Below, in pieces: positions 21,305-50,159 of a DNA stretch of 64,000 nt. Position numbers and translations under genes: made by a program. The notes below the pieces were generated by a model, which had not been told where the DNA came from, did not search any database, and saw nothing but the letters and a program-made list of their open reading frames with translations. Numbering within the stretch: the first letter of the stretch is position 1; the number at the start of each line of letters is the position of its first letter. The stretch is from Candidatus Hydrogenedentota bacterium (GTDB taxonomy: Bacteria > Hydrogenedentota > Hydrogenedentia > Hydrogenedentales > SLHB01), in NCBI GenBank assembly GCA_016215105.1, contig JACRLJ010000028.1:1-64000 (forward strand), read 5' to 3'.

Positions 21305-21333
21305 TTGACACATATCGGAATCCGATGTATTGT
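21305..21333 (+). promoter_or_regulatory. Promoter of the first PadR operon with a spacer palindrome
   Basis: TTGACA (21305-21310) and TATTGT (21328-21333) are spaced by 17 bases. The spacer holds the palindrome ATCGGAATCCGAT (21314-21326), extended by ACAT on the left and ATGT on the right. A palindrome filling the -35/-10 spacer is where a repressor would block polymerase. PadR proteins are usually autoregulated, so this is a candidate operator; that link is inferred. Confidence 0.6.
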
Positions 21334-21385
21334 GGTGAGGAACTCGAAACCAACATTCAGGGGTCGAAAAAGGCTGGCGCGAACC

Positions 21386-21700
21386 ATGAATCTCAAAGGC
21401 ACACTACCCACACTCATCCTGCAAACACTGTCGTCACCGGAGCCAAAACACGGCTACCGGATCGCGCAGGAGATCAAAGCCAAATCCAAAGGCGTGCTCG
21501 ATTTCCGGGAAGGCACGTTGTACCCCGCGTTGCACGGCCTCGAAAACCGGGGACTTCTGGAGTCCTTCGAGGCGCCCGAGAACGGACGCGTGCGGCGCTA
21601 CTACCGCTTGACCGAAGATGGCCGCAAAGAACTCGCCAAAGAGCGTAAGGAATGGAAGAAGCTCGCCACGGGGGTGCGACTGGTGTTGGAGGGGGCGTAA
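21386..21700 (+). CDS. PadR family transcriptional regulator
   Basis: A 104-residue winged-helix repressor. The PadR hallmarks are plain: LKGTLPTLILQTL, KHGYRIAQEI, the GTLYPALHGLENRGLLES wing and RRYYRLTEDGRKEL. It lacks the long C-terminal dimerisation arm of larger PadR proteins, so it belongs to the small (PadR-s1) class. Its stop overlaps the next start (TAATG at 21698-21702), and four more overlapping genes follow, making a six-gene operon. Because every downstream product is a membrane protein with the same N-terminal helical domain, the regulator is likely controlled by, or controls, those partners. The longer frame from 21059 runs through repeats and was not used. Confidence 0.93.
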   Translation: MNLKGTLPTLILQTLSSPEPKHGYRIAQEIKAKSKGVLDFREGTLYPALHGLENRGLLESFEAPENGRVRRYYRLTEDGRKELAKERKEWKKLATGVRLVLEGA

Positions 21701-22422
21701 TGACGCAGTTTCATGGCTTTCAAGCATGGCTTGACGAAGCCACGCGCGACCTGTGCGACGAAGCACGGGCGCGGGTGGAACGTGAGCTGCTGGCACACTA
21801 TGAGGATGCGGTCAGGTCCGCAATTGCGTCTGGCGCTACTGAAGCCGACGCGCATGCGGAAGTCTTGGCGCGTCTTGGAGATGCTGACGCTGCGCGAAAG
21901 GGGTACAACGACGCACATCTGACTCGGGATGAGGAATCGGCCCTTAAGGACAGACTGGCAATCTCGGGGCGTCAGTTTCTATTTCAGCTCACCGCGCTCG
22001 TGGCGGTATCCCTGAACGCCGCGAACGCTGTTGACATTATCACGAGGTATTCCAGTGATCTTGAGAACCGCATAACACAGAACTTTCCTACGGCCTCGTT
22101 CACCATGCTTGCCATGATTTTGTGTGCTGTCGGATTGGGTGTGTATGGAGTAGTCGCTGTCCGCGTGTCGCACAAAAGAAGCGATCTTCGATCGGCATTA
22201 CGATGGTACCGTTCGCTATGGTTAGTATCGGGCTTCATTTTTGGAGCGAGTTACTTCGCCGCGTCGTTGATGATCATTCAGTCTGTAACGATTCTTGATG
22301 TGACTGTCGGCATGTCTCAAATCGTGGTCGGCGCCCTTGCCGCGATATTCGAAAGTCGAAGTCTGGCGCGCAAACTGTCGTACGGTAGTTTCCCTGGCGG
22401 CGTTTCAGGAGCGACATCGTGA
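21700..22422 (+). CDS. HAAS-like domain membrane protein, paralog 1
   Basis: A 240-residue protein, first of five head-to-tail paralogs. Residues about 1-75 are a helical domain with the pattern WLDEATRDLCDEARARVE, AHYEDAV and a closing LARLGDADAARKGY. About four hydrophobic helices follow (for example LFQLTALVAVSLNAANAVDI and FTMLAMILCAVGLGVYGVVA), so the C-terminal part lies in the membrane. The N-terminal domain resembles the HAAS/DUF1700 type that is commonly encoded beside PadR regulators. Start and stop overlap both neighbours (TAATG, GTGA). Function unknown; a membrane sensor or effector coupled to PadR is inferred. Confidence 0.85.
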   Translation: MTQFHGFQAWLDEATRDLCDEARARVERELLAHYEDAVRSAIASGATEADAHAEVLARLGDADAARKGYNDAHLTRDEESALKDRLAISGRQFLFQLTALVAVSLNAANAVDIITRYSSDLENRITQNFPTASFTMLAMILCAVGLGVYGVVAVRVSHKRSDLRSALRWYRSLWLVSGFIFGASYFAASLMIIQSVTILDVTVGMSQIVVGALAAIFESRSLARKLSYGSFPGGVSGATS

Positions 22423-23108
22423 CGCTCACAACCGAAAATCAATGGATTGACGAAGCCACCCGCGGCTTGTGTGACGAAGCGCGCGTGCGGGTGAGGCGGG
22501 AGATTCAGGATCACTGCGCCGATATCGTCGCGGATGAACTCCAAAAGGGACAAAGCATCGCGCGGGCTCATAAGGCCGCCGTGGAAAGCTTGGGTAGTGC
22601 GAAGACCGCGCGGCACGACTATCGGCGGACGTACCTGACTCGGGGTGATGAACGGAAGCTCAAGCGGCTTCAAAATCGAGTATTCGAGGACGCTGCGGTT
22701 GGCCTGCAATTCGCGGCGACAACCTTCATGGGAATCGCGATGGTATGGCACGCTCTCACGCGCATTCTGGCCCACCACCCTGCAACCCTCGCATATGGCG
22801 CATGCGCGCTATTCATAGTGTGCCTCTTCGGACGGTCTTGGCTGATTCCACGTATGTACCAACGAAGCCGAAGGCGCGCGGCGGTTTTTCTCGATACTGC
22901 TTCCCTATTCGGTCATAGTGTTTCGGTCAGTCTGTTGATGCTATCGCTTGCAATTGGACCTGGTCTGAGACCTGTTGGCTCGTGGGCCCTATTCGTCGCG
23001 ATGTCGGTGTCAACAGTTGTCTGCATACCGGTAGCGTTGCTCGACGATGTCCGGCTGTGCCGCAAGTTACGCGGAGAGCGGCATGACCAACCACGGGGCG
23101 TTAGCTAA
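22419..23108 (+). CDS. HAAS-like domain membrane protein, paralog 2
   Basis: A 229-residue paralog. The GTG start at 22419 overlaps the previous stop (GTGA). The helical domain reads WIDEATRGLCDEARVRVRRE, then VESLGSAKTARHDYRRTYLT; the RRTYLT ending is shared with paralogs 3 and 4. Four hydrophobic segments follow (FMGIAMVWHALTRILAHHPA, ACALFIVCLFGRSWLI and others). No catalytic motif is visible. Compared with paralog 1 the soluble domain is better conserved than the membrane part, which is what a shared docking domain with diverged sensors would look like. Confidence 0.85.
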   Translation: MTLTTENQWIDEATRGLCDEARVRVRREIQDHCADIVADELQKGQSIARAHKAAVESLGSAKTARHDYRRTYLTRGDERKLKRLQNRVFEDAAVGLQFAATTFMGIAMVWHALTRILAHHPATLAYGACALFIVCLFGRSWLIPRMYQRSRRRAAVFLDTASLFGHSVSVSLLMLSLAIGPGLRPVGSWALFVAMSVSTVVCIPVALLDDVRLCRKLRGERHDQPRGVS

Positions 23109-23788
23109 TGGCGGCGATGGACGTTTATCACTGGATCGACGAGGCCACGCGGGGCTTGTGCGAAGAAGCGTGTGCGCGGGTGACGCGGGAGATTCTGGGC
23201 CACTACGAAGACGCCGTCGCGGATGCACTGCAAAGCGGGCAAACCGAAGACGAGGCACGTGCGGTTGCCATGGAAAGCTTGGGTAGCGCGAAGGCCGCAG
23301 GGCGCGAGTACCGGCGGACGTATCTGACCGCGAAGGAGGCGAAATGGCTTCGGGCTCGATTGGGGCGCACCGACCCAGAGCCGGAAAAGGTTCGACAAGC
23401 GATGTGGTGGGCTGCCGCTATGGGCCTTATCGCGTGCTGGTCCGCGTCGTCTTCCATCGTTCAGTTCGCTCTACTAATCTTGATTACGACCGGCTATTTT
23501 GTGTTCTTCCATTGGGCGATGACTACGAGGCGCGCCGCCAAGTTGAGACGGCAGGGACGACGTCAGCTCGCGTGGGCGCTGGAAATATCTGTCGGTAACT
23601 ACTACGCGTTTGTCGTCATCCTGGGGACGTATCGCGACCTGTTCAATAGCGGCCAGGATCGATACTACGCGCTGTTCATGCTCGTGCTTATGTGTGTTCT
23701 TGAAGTCTATATGGTCTTTAGGTCCGTCGCCTTTGAACTCAAGCTCCGCCGCCTCAACTACCCCGACAATCCAGCGGGGTCAGCATGA
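23108..23788 (+). CDS. HAAS-like domain membrane protein, paralog 3
   Basis: A 226-residue paralog starting at an ATG that shares its A with the previous TAA. Its domain reads WIDEATRGLCEEACARVTRE, HYEDAVADALQSGQ, MESLGSAKAAGREYRRTYLT. The membrane half has about four helices (MWWAAAMGLIACWSASSSIV, FALLILITTGYFVFFHWAM). Near-identity of the N-terminal domain to paralog 2, down to the ESLGSAK phrase, points to recent tandem duplication. Its stop overlaps the next start by 4 bases. Role unknown; see the operon finding. Confidence 0.85.
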   Translation: MAAMDVYHWIDEATRGLCEEACARVTREILGHYEDAVADALQSGQTEDEARAVAMESLGSAKAAGREYRRTYLTAKEAKWLRARLGRTDPEPEKVRQAMWWAAAMGLIACWSASSSIVQFALLILITTGYFVFFHWAMTTRRAAKLRRQGRRQLAWALEISVGNYYAFVVILGTYRDLFNSGQDRYYALFMLVLMCVLEVYMVFRSVAFELKLRRLNYPDNPAGSA

Positions 23789-24501
23789 TGGCCAGTCATG
23801 ATCTCTATCAATGGCTCGACGCGGCGACCCGGGGCTTGTGTCGGGACGCCCGTGAGAGGGTGGCGCAGGAAATTCGCGCGCATTTTTCGGACGCCTTTAA
23901 TAGCGCGTTCGAGCGGGGACTGACGAGGGCAGACGCCTACGTGAACGCGTTGAAAGGCCTGGGCAGCGCTCGGGCCGCCCGGCGCGCATATCGGCGCGCA
24001 TATCTGACGATGAATGACGAGCGCCGGCTCGGCGTATTGTCGCGATCGAAGAAACACTTTCGCTCGGATTCCACCTTTCAGTTAGTGCTGCTGACCCTGT
24101 ATTTCGTGTGTCATTTGGGCGCCGTGACGAGTGGCTTTGACGATATTGGGATGTACGCGGCAGCGAAGGCCGGTTGGGGCTTGGGACTTTCCGTGTTGGG
24201 GTTCTATCTCGTTGTTAAGCTATGGATCATTCCAATGCTGTGCCGGAATGGGCAGGCCAGGTTCGCGCTGGCGCTGGCGTGTCTGGTGGAGTCGGTCTAC
24301 TGGATAATCGTTCTAGGCGTGCCCTCGGTGAGCAGCTACCGGGTGTCGTCCCTTGGAACGGGCGTCGAGTTCTGGACCGTGGTGATTGACGAAGGCCTCT
24401 TCTTCCTCACCCTTTTCGTTCCGTTCAAGGCGTACCTGAACTTGCCGCTGTGGTGGAAGCTGCGTGCGCGGGAGCGTTCGGCGCCGGAGGGATGGGCGTG
24501 A
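23785..24501 (+). CDS. HAAS-like domain membrane protein, paralog 4
   Basis: A 238-residue paralog. The domain reads WLDAATRGLCRDARERVAQE, IRAHFSDAFNSAFERG, LKGLGSARAARRAYRRAYLT. The C-terminal half has about four hydrophobic helices (LLTLYFVCHLGAVTSGF, LSVLGFYLVVKLWIIPM, EGLFFLTLFVPFKAYLNL). The start could be the first or second ATG at 23785 or 23788; the first overlaps the previous stop. Its stop overlaps the fifth paralog as TGATG. No enzyme or transporter motif is visible. Confidence 0.85.
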   Translation: MMASHDLYQWLDAATRGLCRDARERVAQEIRAHFSDAFNSAFERGLTRADAYVNALKGLGSARAARRAYRRAYLTMNDERRLGVLSRSKKHFRSDSTFQLVLLTLYFVCHLGAVTSGFDDIGMYAAAKAGWGLGLSVLGFYLVVKLWIIPMLCRNGQARFALALACLVESVYWIIVLGVPSVSSYRVSSLGTGVEFWTVVIDEGLFFLTLFVPFKAYLNLPLWWKLRARERSAPEGWA

Positions 24502-25319
24502 TGGCCAAGAGGAATATGGCTCGCGAAGACATAGCGCGCTGGTTGCAGGAAACCACGGAGGGTCTGTCGCCGGACGAATGCGAGCAAGTCCACGAGTTCT
24601 TGATGGAGCATTACGCCGACTTGGTGGATGAGGACTGGTCGAAGCTATCGGAGTCCGAGTACTCGTCCCTCCGGCGCCGCGTGTTGCACTTTCCTATAGA
24701 TCCGACGAACTTGCATGACTGGCTCGATATCGCCACCAAAGGCCTGACAGCCGAATCCGCACAACGCGTCGGCCGCGAAATCACCGAGCATTACCGGGAT
24801 AGGATGACCGCAGAGCGGCGCGAAGGCCGAGACAAACTCGAAGCGCGCGCGGCGGCGATGGCGTCGCTGGGAAATCCCAAAACCGCGCGGCACATGTACC
24901 GGCGCGAGTATGCGACCGTGTCGGACGAGCAGACACTGAAGCCATCGGGGACGCAATTGGGCGCCTGTGCATGGTTTCCGCTCGCGGCTTCAACACATAC
25001 GGGCCATCTGGAGTACCTGATTCCGTTTGGGATCTTCTACGCAATCTATTGCTGGGTGGCCGCGTGGCAGGCGCCCGCGCTTCTCCACAAGGGGCATGTC
25101 AAGTCCGCGCTGGCGTTGCGCTTGTTAGGGGAATCGTACATCTTCTTTCTTCTAGCGTTCCTCATAATGTATTCGCGCCAGCCGTTTCCATTTCACACGG
25201 TCTGGTTGGTGCTTCTGGTTCTACTGGCCGTGTTTGACGTACGGCGCCTCTCGAGGGTTTTCCGCAAGCTGGGCTACGGCTCCGCCAATGTCCCCGGCAG
25301 CGCGCCGCGGCCCGATTGA
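24501..25319 (+). CDS. HAAS-like domain membrane protein, paralog 5 with a doubled domain
   Basis: A 272-residue protein, longest of the five. It carries two helical domains: a degenerate copy at about residues 8-60 (IARWLQETTEGLSPDECEQV, FLMEHYADLVDEDW) and a full copy at about 72-145 (WLDIATKGLTAESAQRVGRE, ITEHYRDRMTAERREG, MASLGNPKTARHMYRREYAT). Four hydrophobic helices follow. The first copy lacks the closing LG-K-AR segment. The start ATG overlaps the previous TGA. After its stop comes a cluster of palindromic repeats, so this is the end of the operon. Confidence 0.85.
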   Translation: MAKRNMAREDIARWLQETTEGLSPDECEQVHEFLMEHYADLVDEDWSKLSESEYSSLRRRVLHFPIDPTNLHDWLDIATKGLTAESAQRVGREITEHYRDRMTAERREGRDKLEARAAAMASLGNPKTARHMYRREYATVSDEQTLKPSGTQLGACAWFPLAASTHTGHLEYLIPFGIFYAIYCWVAAWQAPALLHKGHVKSALALRLLGESYIFFLLAFLIMYSRQPFPFHTVWLVLLVLLAVFDVRRLSRVFRKLGYGSANVPGSAPRPD

Positions 25320-43825: not shown

Positions 43826-44340
43826 GGTCGCCTCCCGCTTTGATTGTGGTTTATGAAACCGCGGACACGGCGGACGGCCCGCCAGCCGTGGCCCGCATTT
43901 TTCCGTGACGCGTAGAATAGGGGATAGCGATGCGTTTCCGCAATAAGGACGAAATCACGCCGGCCCTGCGTTACCTTCCAATCCAAAAGGCATGTAACGT
44001 GTCATTCCGAACAGCGCACACCGGGGCGGAGCTGTTTGTGAAACGAACACCGAGTCGAAGCGCTATGGCCGGGAGGGCGAATGTCCTCATTCGCCGGTCG
44101 GGGCGCGTCAACCTTTGCCGTTTTGTGAGCGATGTTAGGCTCGATACCTCGGCCAAGCGGTGGTTATTGTCAAGAGTTCCGCCTGCTGAAAGTACACGAC
44201 TTACGTAATTGTGTTCCAAGGAGACTTCCTCAGACAATTACCTTCGCCGGTAGTAGTCGAGCGAGTTGCCCCCGAAGAAACATATGCCACGTAAAGGTAC
44301 TAGCAACACTATGTTATGTCATTCTATGGACTCTTCTCTA
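43826..44340. other. Gene-poor 515-base gap
   Basis: This gap between the divergent oxidoreductase gene and the second PadR operon holds no gene I can support. A 92-codon frame at 43930-44208 has no ribosome binding site or domain shape. It contains GGGCGAATGTCCTCATTCGCC, a short inverted repeat near 44076. Confidence 0.5.
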
Positions 44341-44375
44341 GCTAGCTTGCATTACAAGCTAGCTTGTTATATAAT
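44341..44375 (+). promoter_or_regulatory. Promoter and palindromic operator of the second PadR operon
   Basis: TTGCAT (44347-44352) and TATAAT (44370-44375) are separated by 17 bases. The -35 lies inside a perfect 9-bp inverted repeat: GCTAGCTTG (44341-44349) and CAAGCTAGC (44355-44363). A repressor on this site would block polymerase, and the PadR gene of the operon is the natural candidate. The palindrome sequence differs from that of the first PadR operon. Confidence 0.65.
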
Positions 44376-44430
44376 TAGATACTGAGGTTGTGCGAAGGCG
44401 TTCCACTACGAGGGAAAGGTGGGAAAGGTC

Positions 44431-44817
44431 ATGCGAACCCGAACGGCAGGAAGTGTTCTCGTCACTACGGTCACCGTTTGCGCCGTGCTTGGCGTGCTCG
44501 TGCTTGGCGGGGTTTTCTGGGGCATTCACCAGTCCGTCGCCAAGTATAGCGCGGTCGCGCAAGACGCCCATCCCCACCCATCGGACGACATCGCGGCGCT
44601 CACTGACTTCGTGGGGGCGTCGGAGCACGGGTTACCGCAACGCAATCATGCCGTCTGGACCCTGGGACGCCTCAGCGATCCGCGCGCGCTATCCGTGTTG
44701 GAGGCGAACTACACGGGTGAACTGTGCGACCACAATACGATGCTTTGTCAAGACGAGCTTGAGAAAGCCATCAAACGGTGCGGAGGAAAGCCCGCGCCTC
44801 GCCAAACAAGGAGATGA
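44431..44817 (+). CDS. Small membrane-anchored HEAT-like protein
   Basis: A 128-residue protein. The start at 44431 (MRTRTAGSV) has GGGAAAGG about 6 bases upstream. One hydrophobic helix (TVTVCAVLGVLVLGGVFWGI) anchors it. The soluble part has a short HEAT-repeat-like block, GLPQRNHAVWTLGRLSDPRA with LSVLEANYTG, and two cysteines (ELCDHNTMLCQ). It is the first gene of the PadR-exosortase operon, 56 bases after the TATAAT. Function unknown; HEAT repeats usually mediate protein contact, so a scaffold role is inferred. Confidence 0.8.
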   Translation: MRTRTAGSVLVTTVTVCAVLGVLVLGGVFWGIHQSVAKYSAVAQDAHPHPSDDIAALTDFVGASEHGLPQRNHAVWTLGRLSDPRALSVLEANYTGELCDHNTMLCQDELEKAIKRCGGKPAPRQTRR

Positions 44818-44820
44818 CAG

Positions 44821-45135
44821 ATGCATGCGGCCGTAGTCATTCCTGTATTAATCATGATCGGGTTGGGGGCGATCTCAGGATTCGTTTGGCATTGGAAACT
44901 AAAGCGGTACTGGCTCGCGTCCGCGGCCGCGGCCCTTACGGCGGGAGCGGTCTGGACTATCGGCTGCGCCCTGTTTCTGCAGTTCACCGCGCCGTCCGAA
45001 GGATTCACCGGTATGGCTGACGCGCCGTATGCCGCCGCTGCGTTGGCGGTGACCTCGCTTGTCGCGCTGCCGCCCGCGCTGCTGAGCGGGCTTGTCGTCC
45101 GTGGACGCTACGGGCAACGCCAGACCTCTCACTGA
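44821..45135 (+). CDS. Small integral membrane protein
   Basis: A 104-residue protein with three hydrophobic helices (VVIPVLIMIGLGAISGFVW, LASAAAALTAGAVWTIGCAL, AAAALAVTSLVALPPALLSG). AAGGAG is 9 bases upstream of its ATG, and it begins 3 bases after the previous stop. The family is not recognised. Position in the operon, just before the PadR gene, suggests it belongs to the same PadR-controlled membrane group. Confidence 0.75.
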   Translation: MHAAVVIPVLIMIGLGAISGFVWHWKLKRYWLASAAAALTAGAVWTIGCALFLQFTAPSEGFTGMADAPYAAAALAVTSLVALPPALLSGLVVRGRYGQRQTSH

Positions 45136-45163
45136 CTGCAACTACAGAAGGATCATCAACGCG

Positions 45164-45526
45164 ATGCCGGCGCCACCCGAAATGGACCTCAGCAATTGGA
45201 TTACGCAGCTCCGCAAGGGGCTGCTCGAGCTGTGCATCGTCAGCCTCCTCGGAAAGCGGGAAATGTACGCCTACGACCTGGTGAAGCGGCTGGCGCGTAT
45301 CCCCGGACTGGTCCTCACGGAAGGAACGGTGTATCCGCTCCTATCCCGCCTGAACGCAGCGGGATTGGTCGAGACGCGGCTCGAGGAGTCGCCCACCGGG
45401 CCCGCGCGCAAGTACTACGTACTGTCCGACGAAGGCAAACAGGCGATGAACTTGATGCAGACCTATTGGGCGGATCTGGTTAACGGTGTCAACCAGTTGT
45501 TGGAAAGTGAGGAAGAGCATGGCTGA
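45164..45526 (+). CDS. PadR family transcriptional regulator
   Basis: A 120-residue winged-helix regulator. PadR marks are LRKGLLELCIVSLLGKREMY, AYDLVKRLARIPGLVL, EGTVYPLLSRLNAAGLVETR and ARKYYVLSDEG. It is again the small class. AGAAGGA lies about 11 bases before the ATG. Its stop overlaps by 8 bases the start of the HAAS-VIT protein, the same arrangement as in the first PadR operon. It likely represses its own operon through the palindrome at 44341, and its activity may be set by the neighbouring helical domain protein; both points are inferred from context. Confidence 0.93.
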   Translation: MPAPPEMDLSNWITQLRKGLLELCIVSLLGKREMYAYDLVKRLARIPGLVLTEGTVYPLLSRLNAAGLVETRLEESPTGPARKYYVLSDEGKQAMNLMQTYWADLVNGVNQLLESEEEHG

Positions 45527-48239
45527 GTGGACTCCCGAAGCGGGGCGGCGATTGCAGCAGTACCTCGAGCGCGTAGCGGAACTCTCCCGCGCCCGCGGCG
45601 ACGACGCCGACGACATCACCCAACAGTTGCGCGCGCACATCACGACCGAAACTGAAAGCCAGTCCGGCGCCGTCGTCACGCTTGAGCATATCAACCGCGC
45701 GCTCGCGCTGCTGGGCACGCCGGAACAGGTCGTTGGGGTCGAAGCTGTTTCCGTGATCGAGCCCCGAGCCGAGCAGTCGGCGCCTTCAGTCCGAGGGTAC
45801 GGGAAGAACACCAGCATATACGTTTGGATCTTGGGAGTAATCATTCCCGCGTTCTCCTTGGGATTTGAGCTTTTTACCGGCGTGATGTCGCAGATGTACA
45901 AGGATCCCATTCCAACGTGGGGTCACTTGGCGGCGGGCGTTGCGCTAATCGGCAGCATCATCTATGTGGACAGGACAATCACCGGTCTGCGCGCGGGCAA
46001 ACCAGTCAGCCGTTGGGCGTTCATTCTGAACGCGTACGCGACCTTGGTAGGAGCAATCTACTTCGCCATTTACTTGCCCATACTTCCGATCGCGGTCCTT
46101 GCCGTGGCCGCGTTTGGACTGGGGATCATGGGATTCTCGCCGCTTTTTGTTTTCGCGGTGAGCCTGGGTCAGATGCGGATTCTCTATCGCAACCTACCAG
46201 CCCTCGGCATAGATACGTCGTGGGCGCGGAGGCGCAGCCTGACGGGGGCGGCGATCGCGGCGGCGATCCTCGGCGTTCTGAACGGGCCGGACCTCGCTGG
46301 CCAAACCCTGCTCCAAATGGCTACATCGGATAACCCCCAAACGCGATCGCGCGGGACATGGTGGCTTGAGACAATGCACATGGAGAATTACGTCCTGGAC
46401 TCGTGCTATCACCGCGTCGTAACCGGTATCGGCCCCACCCGCCGCTGGAACGACGCCGACATCGCCAATTGGCGCGCTTGCCGGGAACTCTATTTCCGCC
46501 TGACCGGCGTTCCGTACAACAGCGTCCCTAAGCCCAAGCCGGTGTTTGGGCTTTCGGGACGTTCCACCGCGCGTAACTGGCAAAACCAAGCCATTACGAA
46601 CAGCGAAATCGGCGGAACGGAAGTCGCCGGACAGGTGGACGGCTTGAGCCTGTCCTCGAGCACACTCGACGCGAACGCCTCGAGCGCGGAAGATGGCACG
46701 GCCGGTCCGGCGATTGCCTACATTGAATGGGTGGTCGAGTTCAAGAACACGTCCGACGTTCAACGCGAGGCGCGCGGCCAGATCGCGCTGCCGCACGGCG
46801 CCGTGGCAAGCCGCTTGACCTTGTGGATCAACGGCGAAGAGCGCGAAGCCGCCTTCGGGACGCGCGGCCAAGTGCGCGCCGCCTACCAGGAGGTCGCGGT
46901 GGTTCAGCGGCGGGACCCGGCGCTGTTGAGCGCCGTCGGGCCGGATACGGTCTTGCTGCAATGCTTCCCCGTGCCCGCGCAAGGCGTCATGAAAGTCAAA
47001 GTGGGTATATCCGCGCCACTGACCATTCGCAACGGAAAGGCCTACTTACGCCCGCCGTATTTCGAGGAGCGTAACTTTGGGATTCCGGACGACCTCGAGC
47101 ACCACGTGTGGGCCGAATCCGCAACCGCCACGCTCACCGGTTCACGCAGCCTGACCGCGGACGCTAACGGCGGCAAACATTCAGCGCACGGCAAATTGAC
47201 GAATGACCAACTTTCCAACCTGACCTCCGGTGTAATTGAGTTGCCCGCGCCGAATGCGATGGGCATAACGTACGCCGACACGCTCGGTTCAGAATCCGCC
47301 TCGATGACGCTTCGGCCTTACGCCGCGTCATCGAGCGACCCGGTGAGCATTTGTCTCGTCATCGACGGATCAGCGTCCATGAACCAACTGGAGAACAGCC
47401 TGGATTGGCGAGAGATGGTGAATGCGCTTCCGGCCAACGCACTGGTGAACGCTGTCTTCGCCGGACGCGATGTGGAGGCGTGGTCTCGCGACTTCGCATC
47501 GCCGTCACCCGCGCTGGCCGAGTGGCTCACGAACCGCGAGTACCGCGGCGGCCGTGACCCAGTCCCGGCGCTGGAGAAAGCGTGGGACATGGTTTCCACC
47601 AAGCCGCACGCCGTCATCCTCTGGATTCACGGCCCCTTGCCGATTGATCTCTCCTCGATAGACGGACTGAACCAATGGCTCCAGCGCCGTCCCGCGAGCG
47701 CGTCCGGCGAGTTGATCCGCCTGCTGGAAGTCTCGGCGGTTGCCGGTCCCAACCGCGTCATCGAAAAGTGCGGCGACTTGGCGGGTATCGAGCGCGTGCC
47801 CGTGATTGGCTCGCTGAAGGACACCTTGGCTTACGCAGCGAAGTCCCTCCACGGCGAAGATGTCGAACGCGTCTATACACTTGCCCCCGATCCCGCGGCA
47901 TCCAACGCAGGCGCGACAGCTGCGGCACACGTGGTTCGCTTGGCGATCAACCAGCGCGTCCACGAAGCGGTGCGCCGTCAAAATAAGAAGGAACAATCGG
48001 AACTGGCTGATCTGGCAGTGAAGGCCCGGTTGGTGACTCCGGTCAGCGGGGCCGTTGTGCTCGAACAGCAGGCGCAATACACGCGGCACGGTCTCGATCC
48101 CACGCGCAACGAAGAAGCCATACCGGGCATTCCCGAGCCCGAAGAATGGGCGTTAATGGCCATCGCCGCGTGCGCGCTCGTGTTCATGCTCGTCCGCCGC
48201 AAGACGCAACGTCCGGCAAGCGCGCATACAGCGGCGTAG
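45519..48239 (+). CDS. HAAS-VIT-vWA surface protein with PEP-CTERM tail
   Basis: A 906-residue fusion. Residues 1-85 are a helical HAAS-like domain (AGRRLQQYLERVAELSRARG, DADDITQQLRAHI, ALLGTPEQVVG). About 98-215 hold four to five transmembrane helices. A VIT domain lies at about 395-500 (QREARGQIALPHGAVASRL, AAYQEVAVVQRRDPALL), followed by a von Willebrand-like segment with the MIDAS start VIDGSAS (614-620). The C-terminus is IPEPEEWALM plus a hydrophobic helix and RRK, a PEP-CTERM sorting signal. The ATG has GTGAGGAA upstream and overlaps the PadR stop. The exosortase gene follows 14 bases later. This is the predicted substrate of that exosortase. Confidence 0.9.
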   Translation: MAEWTPEAGRRLQQYLERVAELSRARGDDADDITQQLRAHITTETESQSGAVVTLEHINRALALLGTPEQVVGVEAVSVIEPRAEQSAPSVRGYGKNTSIYVWILGVIIPAFSLGFELFTGVMSQMYKDPIPTWGHLAAGVALIGSIIYVDRTITGLRAGKPVSRWAFILNAYATLVGAIYFAIYLPILPIAVLAVAAFGLGIMGFSPLFVFAVSLGQMRILYRNLPALGIDTSWARRRSLTGAAIAAAILGVLNGPDLAGQTLLQMATSDNPQTRSRGTWWLETMHMENYVLDSCYHRVVTGIGPTRRWNDADIANWRACRELYFRLTGVPYNSVPKPKPVFGLSGRSTARNWQNQAITNSEIGGTEVAGQVDGLSLSSSTLDANASSAEDGTAGPAIAYIEWVVEFKNTSDVQREARGQIALPHGAVASRLTLWINGEEREAAFGTRGQVRAAYQEVAVVQRRDPALLSAVGPDTVLLQCFPVPAQGVMKVKVGISAPLTIRNGKAYLRPPYFEERNFGIPDDLEHHVWAESATATLTGSRSLTADANGGKHSAHGKLTNDQLSNLTSGVIELPAPNAMGITYADTLGSESASMTLRPYAASSSDPVSICLVIDGSASMNQLENSLDWREMVNALPANALVNAVFAGRDVEAWSRDFASPSPALAEWLTNREYRGGRDPVPALEKAWDMVSTKPHAVILWIHGPLPIDLSSIDGLNQWLQRRPASASGELIRLLEVSAVAGPNRVIEKCGDLAGIERVPVIGSLKDTLAYAAKSLHGEDVERVYTLAPDPAASNAGATAAAHVVRLAINQRVHEAVRRQNKKEQSELADLAVKARLVTPVSGAVVLEQQAQYTRHGLDPTRNEEAIPGIPEPEEWALMAIAACALVFMLVRRKTQRPASAHTAA

Positions 48240-48253
48240 CGGAGGTCTTCGAC

Positions 48254-49696
48254 GTGAGTGTTCAAGCGGTCCAGCCGGCAATAAATACCCGAACAGTCCT
48301 CGTGGCGAGGGCCGCCCTGGCGCTTGCCGTTTCATTGGCGTGCTGGGCCGCTGCGCTTGCGCTATGGGATCGGTGGTGGGCGCCGTGGGGCTCGCAAGCT
48401 AGCGCGATGGTGTTTGCCATCGGCGTGTTGAGTTGGGCATGGCTGGCGGTCCGCGGCCGCGAGGCGTGGACCCCGGCCCACGCCTGCGCTCCGGCGTTCC
48501 TCGCCGCCTCCGCCGCCTGTCTTCTGGTATACGCCGCGCTCTACACGCGCCTTCCGCAACTGGTCTCGTGCGAACTCGCATTGACCGCGCTGGGGTGCGT
48601 TCTGATGGGCACGCTCCCCGCTATCACGCGCCGGCAATCGTGGGGTGTATTCTTCCTAATCGTACTGTCCGCCCACGTCGCGACTTCCCTCGAATTCTTC
48701 ATTGGATTCCCCCTGCGCCTCGTCGTGGGCAAGATCGCCGCACTGATGCTCGGACAATCCATCCAGGCCGTCGGTACGGGCCTCACCGACGGCGCAAACA
48801 CAGTCTTCATCGACGCCCCGTGCAGTGGAGTACGTATGCTGTCCACGTCGCTGGTATTGGCGTCGGCGCTCGCGGTACTGATGCGCTTGCGCCTCTACCG
48901 GACACTGTTGCTCCTCGCGATTGCCGTGGTCCTGGCGGTCTTGGGAAATGCGGAACGCGCCGCAACCCTGTTCATCGTAACATCCGCGGGAGATTCCGAC
49001 TCGGATATGGATTTGGTATTCGGTATCATCGTGTTTGCGGGGTGTGTCTGCGCGTTGACGTACGCGGCAAGCGTGCTGAAGCGGCGCGAGAACCCGGCGC
49101 CGCAATCGCCGCTCAAGTCCAGGCCGGAACGCGCGGGGCGCCCAGTCCTATATTCGCTGTTCGCGCTGGCGTGTGTCGCGGCCGTGATACGACCGGTATT
49201 CGCGATAGCGGCAGAAGGCGCCGAAGTTCGCACGCCAACGCAATGGCCAACGACATGGGAAGGCCAGCGGCTAATCCCCGTCCCGGTTTCCGAAGGCATG
49301 CGCGAGTACCTGCGCGATTTTCCCGGCGACTCGGCCCAGTTCCAGGTCGGCGATACCGGCAAACTGATCCTGTTGCGCCGGACCGCCTTCGCGACACGGA
49401 AACTTCACTCCTCCGAGAACTGCTACCGCGGTAAAGGCGTCACCCGTAAGCCGATGCCCGCCGTCCGGGACACCGGCGGGCGCCTGTGGAGTCAGTTCTG
49501 GCTCAATCGGCCTTTTTCGGCCCCACGCACCGTGCGTCAATGCTATTTCTCGATTGACCCCGCCGCCGCCGGAGGCGCGCTCGAGGACTGGGTGCGGGAC
49601 GCGCCATCCTGGCCCGATGCGTCGAGCTGGTACTGGGCCGCCGCCCGCCCCGGCTCGCCAGTCAGGACGACGCTGGCAGTCACCGTGCTGGAATGA
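48254..49696 (+). CDS. Dedicated exosortase with C-terminal extension
   Basis: A 480-residue multi-pass membrane protein of the exosortase group. About ten hydrophobic helices cover residues 13-275. The catalytic cysteine is at 190 in FIDAPCSGVRML, and the arginine at 235 in GNAERAATLF; the usual histidine about 18 residues later is not visible, the matching stretch reading GDSDSDMDLVFG. A 160-residue soluble tail (about 320-480) resembles the extension of other exosortases that work with one partner. The GTG start has GGAGG 8 bases upstream. It follows the VIT/PEP-CTERM protein, as in the described XrtN-VIT pairing. It should cleave the PEP-CTERM of that protein and attach it to the envelope. 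Confidence 0.88.
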   Translation: MSVQAVQPAINTRTVLVARAALALAVSLACWAAALALWDRWWAPWGSQASAMVFAIGVLSWAWLAVRGREAWTPAHACAPAFLAASAACLLVYAALYTRLPQLVSCELALTALGCVLMGTLPAITRRQSWGVFFLIVLSAHVATSLEFFIGFPLRLVVGKIAALMLGQSIQAVGTGLTDGANTVFIDAPCSGVRMLSTSLVLASALAVLMRLRLYRTLLLLAIAVVLAVLGNAERAATLFIVTSAGDSDSDMDLVFGIIVFAGCVCALTYAASVLKRRENPAPQSPLKSRPERAGRPVLYSLFALACVAAVIRPVFAIAAEGAEVRTPTQWPTTWEGQRLIPVPVSEGMREYLRDFPGDSAQFQVGDTGKLILLRRTAFATRKLHSSENCYRGKGVTRKPMPAVRDTGGRLWSQFWLNRPFSAPRTVRQCYFSIDPAAAGGALEDWVRDAPSWPDASSWYWAAARPGSPVRTTLAVTVLE

Positions 49697-49708
49697 GAGC
49701 CTGTCTCC

Positions 49709-50032
49709 GTACCACCGGACGTCAACTTCATTCAATCACCCGCAAGAAATCACGCGGGAGGGTCGGCGTCCCCGCCGACCGGTCTCGGCGCAGGCCACAC
49801 GCAAACAAATCGAGCCGTAGATCGCGCGGCAAGGTATCTGCCTAATCGCAAATGTCCGGGCGACAACCTCGTACCACCGAACGTCAACATCATTCAATTA
49901 GCCGCAAGAGTTCGCGCGGGCGGGTCGGCGTCCCCGCCGACCGGTCCCGGCGCAGGCCACATGCAAACACATCGAGCCGTGGGTCGCGCGGCAAGGTATC
50001 TGCCGAACGGCGAATCTACGGGCGACAACGGT
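49709..50032. repeat. 162-bp tandem direct duplication
   Basis: The segment 49709-49870 is repeated at 49871-50032 with scattered changes. Each copy holds the hairpin GGTCGGCGTCCCCGCCGACC and CAAGGTATCTGCC. A third, inverted copy of the hairpin follows at about 50030-50055. No gene is seen in 49697-50159. Confidence 0.85.
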
Positions 50033-50159
50033 CGGCGGGGACGCCGACCCTCCCGTCCTCTCGCCATTCTCATTTGTGGTTCCGGCCCTGTCGTCCGTGT
50101 TTCTTCCTGCGTTCAATACCGTATAATGCTGTCACATCTAGACTCTACAGGAGAGTGCG

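Follow-up and report, generated by a model that had tools for sequence, protein, structure and literature searches.

A putative PadR-HAAS signalling operon whose candidate sensor is also a candidate exosortase substrate

Background

Proteins that carry a PEP-CTERM signal are usually regarded as cargo. In the PEP-CTERM/exosortase system as originally described (PMC1569441), the substrates end in a PEP motif, a transmembrane helix and a basic tail and typically begin with an N-terminal signal peptide, and the exosortases carry conserved Cys and Arg motifs together with a third catalytic residue, His, in the motif His-x-x-x-Gly. Large proteins with a C-terminal sorting tag also make up the families TIGR04477 (XrtN-system VIT), which are VIT proteins named for exosortase XrtN, and TIGR04286 (MSEP-CTERM).

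PadR regulators, for their part, are paired with membrane proteins in the HAAS-PadR-like wHTH systems, which have been proposed as an alternative to two-component systems (PMC11237479). HAAS, described there by a GxP kink in its third helix, forms the N-terminus of a multi-transmembrane protein, and PadR is encoded by a separate adjacent gene. The main-text passages of that work name HAAS fusions to PspC, Toastrack, LiaI-LiaF-TM, VanZ, FtsX/MacB, FtsW/RodA, pentapeptide repeats and uncharacterised transmembrane domains, but neither a VIT/vWA/PEP-CTERM sensor nor an operator motif. In Listeria, the PadR repressor LltR represses its own operon, including a DUF1700 protein of the HAAS superfamily (LltR-Lmo0600 operon; PMC6624303).

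The locus analysed here comes from Candidatus Hydrogenedentota bacterium (GCA_016215105.1, contig JACRLJ010000028.1); the window is the whole stretch examined, positions 1-64,000 of the forward strand. Like the HAAS-PadR systems, it encodes a putative N-terminal HAAS domain with a predicted third-helix kink on a multi-transmembrane protein and a separate adjacent PadR; unlike them, it has a VIT/vWA/PEP-CTERM sensor candidate and a predicted operator. The LltR operon differs in that it is Gram-positive, has DUF1700 and DUF4097 proteins as partners and lacks an exosortase or sorting tag. Compared with the typical PEP-CTERM substrate, the protein would be held by five transmembrane helices, and the exosortase beside it has Asp for the third catalytic residue. 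The protein scores 143.8 bits against TIGR04477 (cut-off 250) and 46 bits against TIGR04286 (cut-off 150), and seven wider relatives score 99-143 bits against TIGR04477. Both halves of the locus, PadR-HAAS and PEP-CTERM/exosortase, are known; neither their combination nor its common operator and distribution turned up in the open-licence papers searched. Of 5.39 million such papers none contains both 'PEP-CTERM' and 'PadR', and absence from open-licence papers is weak evidence.

Organization of the locus

The region 44,340-49,696 contains a candidate promoter and a perfect palindrome, followed by genes for a HEAT-like protein, a small membrane protein, PadR, a 906-residue protein and an exosortase:

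44340..44364, no strand: perfect palindrome AGCTAGCTTG-CATTA-CAAGCTAGCT, predicted PadR operator (arms 100% complementary, repeat search)
44347..44375, plus strand: promoter candidate (TTGCAT at 44347-44352, 17 nt, TATAAT at 44370-44375; from reading the sequence)
44431..44817, plus strand: HEAT-like protein, 128 aa (one N-terminal hydrophobic stretch; Pfam HEAT_2 0.011, HEAT_PBS 0.015)
44821..45135, plus strand: small membrane protein, 104 aa (passenger gene)
45164..45526, plus strand: PadR family repressor, 120 aa (Pfam PadR 3.5e-18)
45519..48239, plus strand: HAAS/five-transmembrane/VIT/vWA/PEP-CTERM membrane protein, 906 aa (Pfam, NCBIfam, alignment, AlphaFold, Foldseek)
48254..49696, plus strand: exosortase with a fused C-terminal domain, 480 aa (Pfam Exosortase_EpsH, PF09721, 5.5e-21)

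An earlier sequence-only reading had placed five genes behind one promoter; this layout is confirmed, with all five genes co-directional and the promoter remaining a candidate read by eye. The PadR gene, whose product is 55-66% identical to the PadRs adjoining the homologues of the large protein in the same class, overlaps the gene of the 906-residue protein by 8 nt. The exosortase gene starts with GTG, with GGAGG ahead of it. The 906-residue protein is the candidate sensor and the candidate exosortase substrate.

The same reading had described the first gene as encoding a HEAT-like membrane protein; the gene and its N-terminal hydrophobic stretch stand, and the HEAT assignment is weak. No homologue of this gene was found among the 67 other genomes of the class. 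Homologues of the small membrane protein occur in three other genomes of those searched, and neither a HEAT-like nor a PadR gene was seen next to these homologues. We therefore rejected both genes as core parts, as they are missing from the homologous loci, and regard them as operon passengers.

Domain architecture of the 906-residue protein

The protein can be divided into an N-terminal helical domain, a membrane part, a large VIT/vWA part and a C-terminal sorting tag:

45519..45734, plus strand: HAAS domain, residues 1-72 (Pfam HAAS 1e-4 on residues 1-88; AlphaFold)
45804..46322, plus strand: five predicted transmembrane helices, residues 96-120, 134-158, 165-199, 201-229 and 233-268 (AlphaFold)
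46713..47003, plus strand: VIT domain, Pfam core residues 399-495 (Pfam 4.8e-7; fold match to ITIH1 heavy chain, E 6.9e-19)
47340..47888, plus strand: vWA-like domain with non-canonical MIDAS, about residues 608-790 (Foldseek VIT+vWA alignment)
48129..48209, plus strand: PEP-CTERM signal IPEPEEW, then transmembrane helix and start of the basic tail, residues 871-897 (alignments)

Pfam HAAS matches the N-terminus at 0.0041 when the whole protein is searched and at 1e-4 when the first 88 residues are isolated; the PF22564 score of 23 bits is below the curated cut-off of 27, which a paralogue on contig C91 of the host genome exceeds (29.1 bits). HAAS is also matched in seven of nine close relatives (best 1e-6) and in 24 of 54 wider relatives (best 2.3e-8), and PCP_red is matched as well in 11 of these 54. 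An AlphaFold model from 54 sequences, with pLDDT 90-96 over blocks of residues 1-70, places helices at 6-26, 30-49, 55-65 and 68-71, the last two separated by a break at G66-T67-P68, that is, three helices of which the third is kinked at the GxP motif by which the domain is described. The motif is not universal, being present by a simple pattern in 28 of 63 HAAS ends. Foldseek found no significant solved relative of this model (best E 0.59, with a PCP_red structure among the weak matches), and a profile of the HAAS alignment retrieved only designed and unrelated proteins from the solved structures. HAAS, which the sequence-only reading had proposed for this end, is the best label for the N-terminus and is accepted with the reservation that the copy in the window lies under the Pfam cut-off.

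The AlphaFold model of the entire protein (mean pLDDT 80.8, nine-sequence alignment) has helices at 6-72, the VIT/vWA part after the five transmembrane helices and, at the C-terminus, a helix spanning 874-896. Lys and Arg cluster in the predicted inner loops across the nine aligned sequences. Taken together, the five helices and this bias predict an inner HAAS and an outer VIT, and the PEP-CTERM helix would return the basic tail to the inside. The topology suggested earlier, HAAS in and VIT out, is thus borne out as a prediction.

The closest fold match to the VIT/vWA part is ITIH1 (inter-alpha-inhibitor heavy chain 1, PDB 6fpy), the best Foldseek match, which aligns over 594 columns (E 6.9e-19) and shares both VIT and vWA. 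It is an animal protein with 11% identity, and the window protein adds HAAS, the transmembrane helices and the PEP-CTERM signal. Pfam found no vWA in the window protein; evidence for this fold comes from the AlphaFold model and from Foldseek. The window domain keeps DGSAS, of which D616-G-S is conserved, and the Thr and third-loop Asp positions of the MIDAS are replaced, the latter by His704. Across 84 members the first MIDAS Asp is invariant, the second Ser is retained in 20, the Thr position usually holds Gln, Cys, Arg or His, and in 82 members His stands at the last Asp position. Since these positions are replaced in most members, we rejected a canonical metal-binding vWA, and an adhesion site of that kind is unsupported.

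A signature DGS / GG-x-D / W-x-H, with His at the place of the MIDAS Asp, is conserved in the vWA part of the 84 VIT-family proteins, and possibly marks a new binding site.

Distribution and association of PadR with HAAS

A scan of the genome collection with the single 906-residue protein as query gave no match. An alignment-based scan of the contigs of this collection gave 206 relatives, and the best 80 were examined together with those of the window's own class. Nine other genomes of this class (68 genomes in all) encode long homologues, complete or partial, and PadR adjoins every one that has upstream sequence except that of genome G021, in which no PadR of this kind was found.

The presence of PadR tracks that of the HAAS end. 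PadR lies directly upstream of 60 of the 63 HAAS-bearing homologues versus one of the 18 HAAS-less ones (loci with sufficient flanks; Fisher 1.5e-13), a value that overstates independence because the tree contains few independent changes. HAAS changes at least six times on the tree and PadR nine times, and the three independent pairs on well-supported branches are mostly concordant and never discordant (p 0.25). The HAAS-bearing loci without PadR are L041 (the G021 homologue), L069 and L108, and the sole HAAS-less locus with PadR, L082, encodes a degenerate HAAS-like N-terminus (E 0.0024 when searched alone).

The unit of a HAAS-VIT-PEP-CTERM protein and PadR is found in Verrucomicrobiota, Kiritimatiellota, Lentisphaerota, Planctomycetota, Omnitrophota, Elusimicrobiota, Sumerlaeota and Hydrogenedentota, with phylum labels that come partly from MAG records and may be wrong for single loci. 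Absence of PadR from all similar loci would have told against the sequence-only reading, and the counts above show the contrary. That reading had also taken the arrangement to be unusual, which is not borne out, as the unit recurs over these phyla.

A predicted PadR operator common to the homologous loci

Palindromes recur upstream of the PadR genes across the loci. A symmetric position weight matrix trained on 60 PadR upstream regions, with the window excluded, gives the consensus GCTACCTTG-N5-CAAGGTAGC, with the core TACCTTG-N5-CAAGGTA. When this matrix is scanned over the window and the loci, the top site of the 64 kb window is 44,341-44,363 (25.5 bits; the next site has 9.2 bits). A site above the 99% shuffle threshold (9.3 bits) precedes PadR in 50 of the 60 training loci, a somewhat generous count in that the shuffles were scored using the finished matrix. 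The held-out loci of PadR-HAAS paralogues without VIT all exceed the threshold (14/14, 16-29 bits), and none of the 17 HAAS-less control loci does.

The window core, TAGCTTG-N5-CAAGCTA at 44343-44361, is a variant in which both arms are altered alike, as expected if selection keeps the dyad. The -35 of the candidate promoter sits within the predicted operator, which covers the -35 region ahead of TATAAT; a consensus promoter scan called nothing at 44347-44375, where the -35 is poor (3/6 matches). The site is about 800 bp upstream of PadR, and the two passenger genes occupy the interval. The control by PadR that had been suggested from the sequence thus gains a predicted palindromic operator over the operon's own candidate promoter, with a motif common to the homologous loci. 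By comparison among loci, and given the LltR precedent, autorepression of PadR through this palindrome is well supported. Genome-wide, a search with the bare pattern gave 93 sites versus 105 for a reversed-pattern control; without enrichment, the supported target is PadR's own operon or operons, and no wider regulon is evident.

A scan had flagged the palindrome as a terminator, a reading that we rejected since the motif recurs before PadR genes.

The PEP-CTERM tag and its exosortase

The C-terminus carries the PEP motif, transmembrane helix and basic tail that had been assigned to PEP-CTERM, the tag in full being GIPEPEEWALM (IPEPEEWALM as read earlier), with a subthreshold match to profile TIGR02595 (14.7 bits, cut-off 16). 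The Glu-Pro of the motif is aligned in 83 of 84 homologues, and a hydrophobic stretch and basic tail follow it in the C-termini examined.

The exosortase belongs by profile to the EpsH family (PF09721, 75.5 bits, cut-off 25.7). In an active-site alignment it retains Cys190 and Arg235 and has Asp253 in place of His, so that of the motifs Cys-x-Gly, Asn-x-x-Arg and His-x-x-x-Gly the third lacks its His. Among the aligned exosortases only the window copy has Asp at this position, three others have Glu and the remainder His. In the window copy a Cys pair retained in most close relatives is also replaced at both positions. The catalytic activity of the window exosortase is uncertain, the Glu of the three other members arguing against a conclusion that it is lost.

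An exosortase gene is adjacent in 16 of 56 HAAS-bearing loci, versus 15 of 18 HAAS-less ones. The PEPEEW tag and an adjacent exosortase go together: all 16 testable PEPEEW proteins have one adjacent, and PEPEEW occurs in none of the 43 loci without an adjacent exosortase (Fisher 4.5e-8 for PEPEEW versus exosortase adjacency). Most verrucomicrobial members lack an adjacent exosortase and mostly have VPEP- or IPEP-type tags; they would depend on an exosortase encoded elsewhere. Because 40 of the 56 testable HAAS-bearing loci have none adjacent, the PadR link does not need a dedicated exosortase, which is a separate, optional partner of the PadR-HAAS unit. Elsewhere in the host genome lie further exosortase matches and at least 12 matches to PEP-CTERM, and the pair in the window therefore looks dedicated.

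Two further exosortase genes appear interrupted. In the host genome (G000:C68:12446-13158) an exosortase match is split over two frames, either a broken gene or an assembly error, and at L044:3692-5619 an exosortase beside a VIT protein lies in two overlapping frames, an apparent frameshift.

Proposed mechanism and alternatives

Our analysis suggests that the locus is probably a PadR-HAAS signalling operon in which the sensor is also a substrate of the exosortase. PadR would bind the palindrome at 44,340-44,364, where it would cover the -35 and spacer, and repress the whole operon including its own gene. The 906-residue protein would lie in the inner membrane with HAAS in the cytoplasm, five transmembrane helices, VIT/vWA outside and the PEP-CTERM helix at the C-terminus. 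HAAS would touch PadR and relay the state of the outer part, upon which PadR would be released or reconfigured, and the neighbouring exosortase would recognise the PEPEEW tag and process the outer end. As five helices would still hold the protein, such processing would modify or tether the outer end rather than simply free it. Comparison and prediction lend good support to repression through the operator and to the topology. Family precedent makes signalling from HAAS to PadR likely, given the proposal for this family (PMC11237479) and the absence of PadR where HAAS is absent, and processing by the exosortase is suggested by the exosortase family and the pairing with PEPEEW.

PadR might instead answer a small molecule, as LmrR does, and control a surface protein that gives no feedback, with HAAS only anchoring, assembling or co-repressing. 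Small-molecule-responsive PadR repressors such as LmrR and LftR are known (described in PMC6624303), but where the HAAS end is missing PadR is missing too, though the remaining protein and the exosortase stay, and plain co-regulation predicts otherwise; we hold this reading to be unlikely while giving it some weight. It is quite unlikely that the protein is a two-ended receptor, in which the exosortase joins the VIT/vWA outer end to an envelope polymer or lipid and the joined state is read through the five transmembrane helices by HAAS and PadR. If it were, the cell would measure its own surface sorting or matrix attachment, and the replaced MIDAS, in which His almost invariably takes the Asp position, would be a novel binding or metal site.

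Sorting itself could be the signal, as the sequence-only reading had it: the HAAS end of the unprocessed protein would fix the state of PadR until the exosortase acts, and PadR would tune sorting capacity. Substrate, exosortase and PadR do share one operon in Hydrogenedentota and some other phyla, and each testable PEPEEW protein has its own exosortase. Since most HAAS-bearing loci have no exosortase beside them, and nearly all of those 40 loci retain PadR and HAAS, an exosortase that ends the signal is unsupported; together with the Asp for the catalytic His in the window exosortase, this makes sorting feedback very unlikely. The same Asp, confined to the window copy among aligned members, the lost Cys pair and the two passenger genes that part the operator from PadR would fit a decaying operon with an inactive exosortase, a relic. 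This is highly improbable, as all frames are open, the exosortase Cys and Arg are retained, the operator is near perfect and other members have Glu at the same exosortase position.

On the preferred reading of a PadR-HAAS signalling operon, one large PEP-CTERM family has members with a likely regulator-contacting domain at the end opposite the tag, and PadR is tied to that domain. The recurrence of the repressor-receptor pair and its control site over several phyla hints at a capacity of tagged surface proteins to serve as signal receptors. We propose this as a concrete route that would link the surface to transcription, for instance in Verrucomicrobiota and Planctomycetota, and by which the proposed HAAS-PadR signalling would gain a defined, predicted operator and a defined surface sensor.

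Related loci

All three PF22564 matches of the host genome adjoin PadR genes. At G000:C110:26360-26672 (L180) in the same genome, another PadR has a near-operator palindrome, TACCATGAACTTCAAGGTA (one mismatch), just upstream and a HAAS-like protein downstream. A second PadR (2.1e-23) is encoded within the window itself, at 21320-25316, followed by five membrane proteins with Pfam HAAS values of 0.019-0.16 or no match. These had been said to share the helical domain of the 906-residue protein; this holds at the superfamily level only, the HAAS models built here giving no match at E<0.1 to the proteins of this operon, which is likely a PadR operon of the wider HAAS superfamily.

At L042:6295-7281 and L043:561-2792 a further HAAS-bearing protein lies downstream of the exosortase and has the C-terminal pattern NVLYLDGHVEYV, which we take to resemble that of DUF1559-type proteins. 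Behind the exosortase gene of the window, positions 49708-50049 contain a 160-nt direct repeat whose units are 88% identical and lie 162 nt apart; the palindrome GGTCGGCGTCCCCGCCGACC occurs there three times, once inverted, where none is expected by chance.
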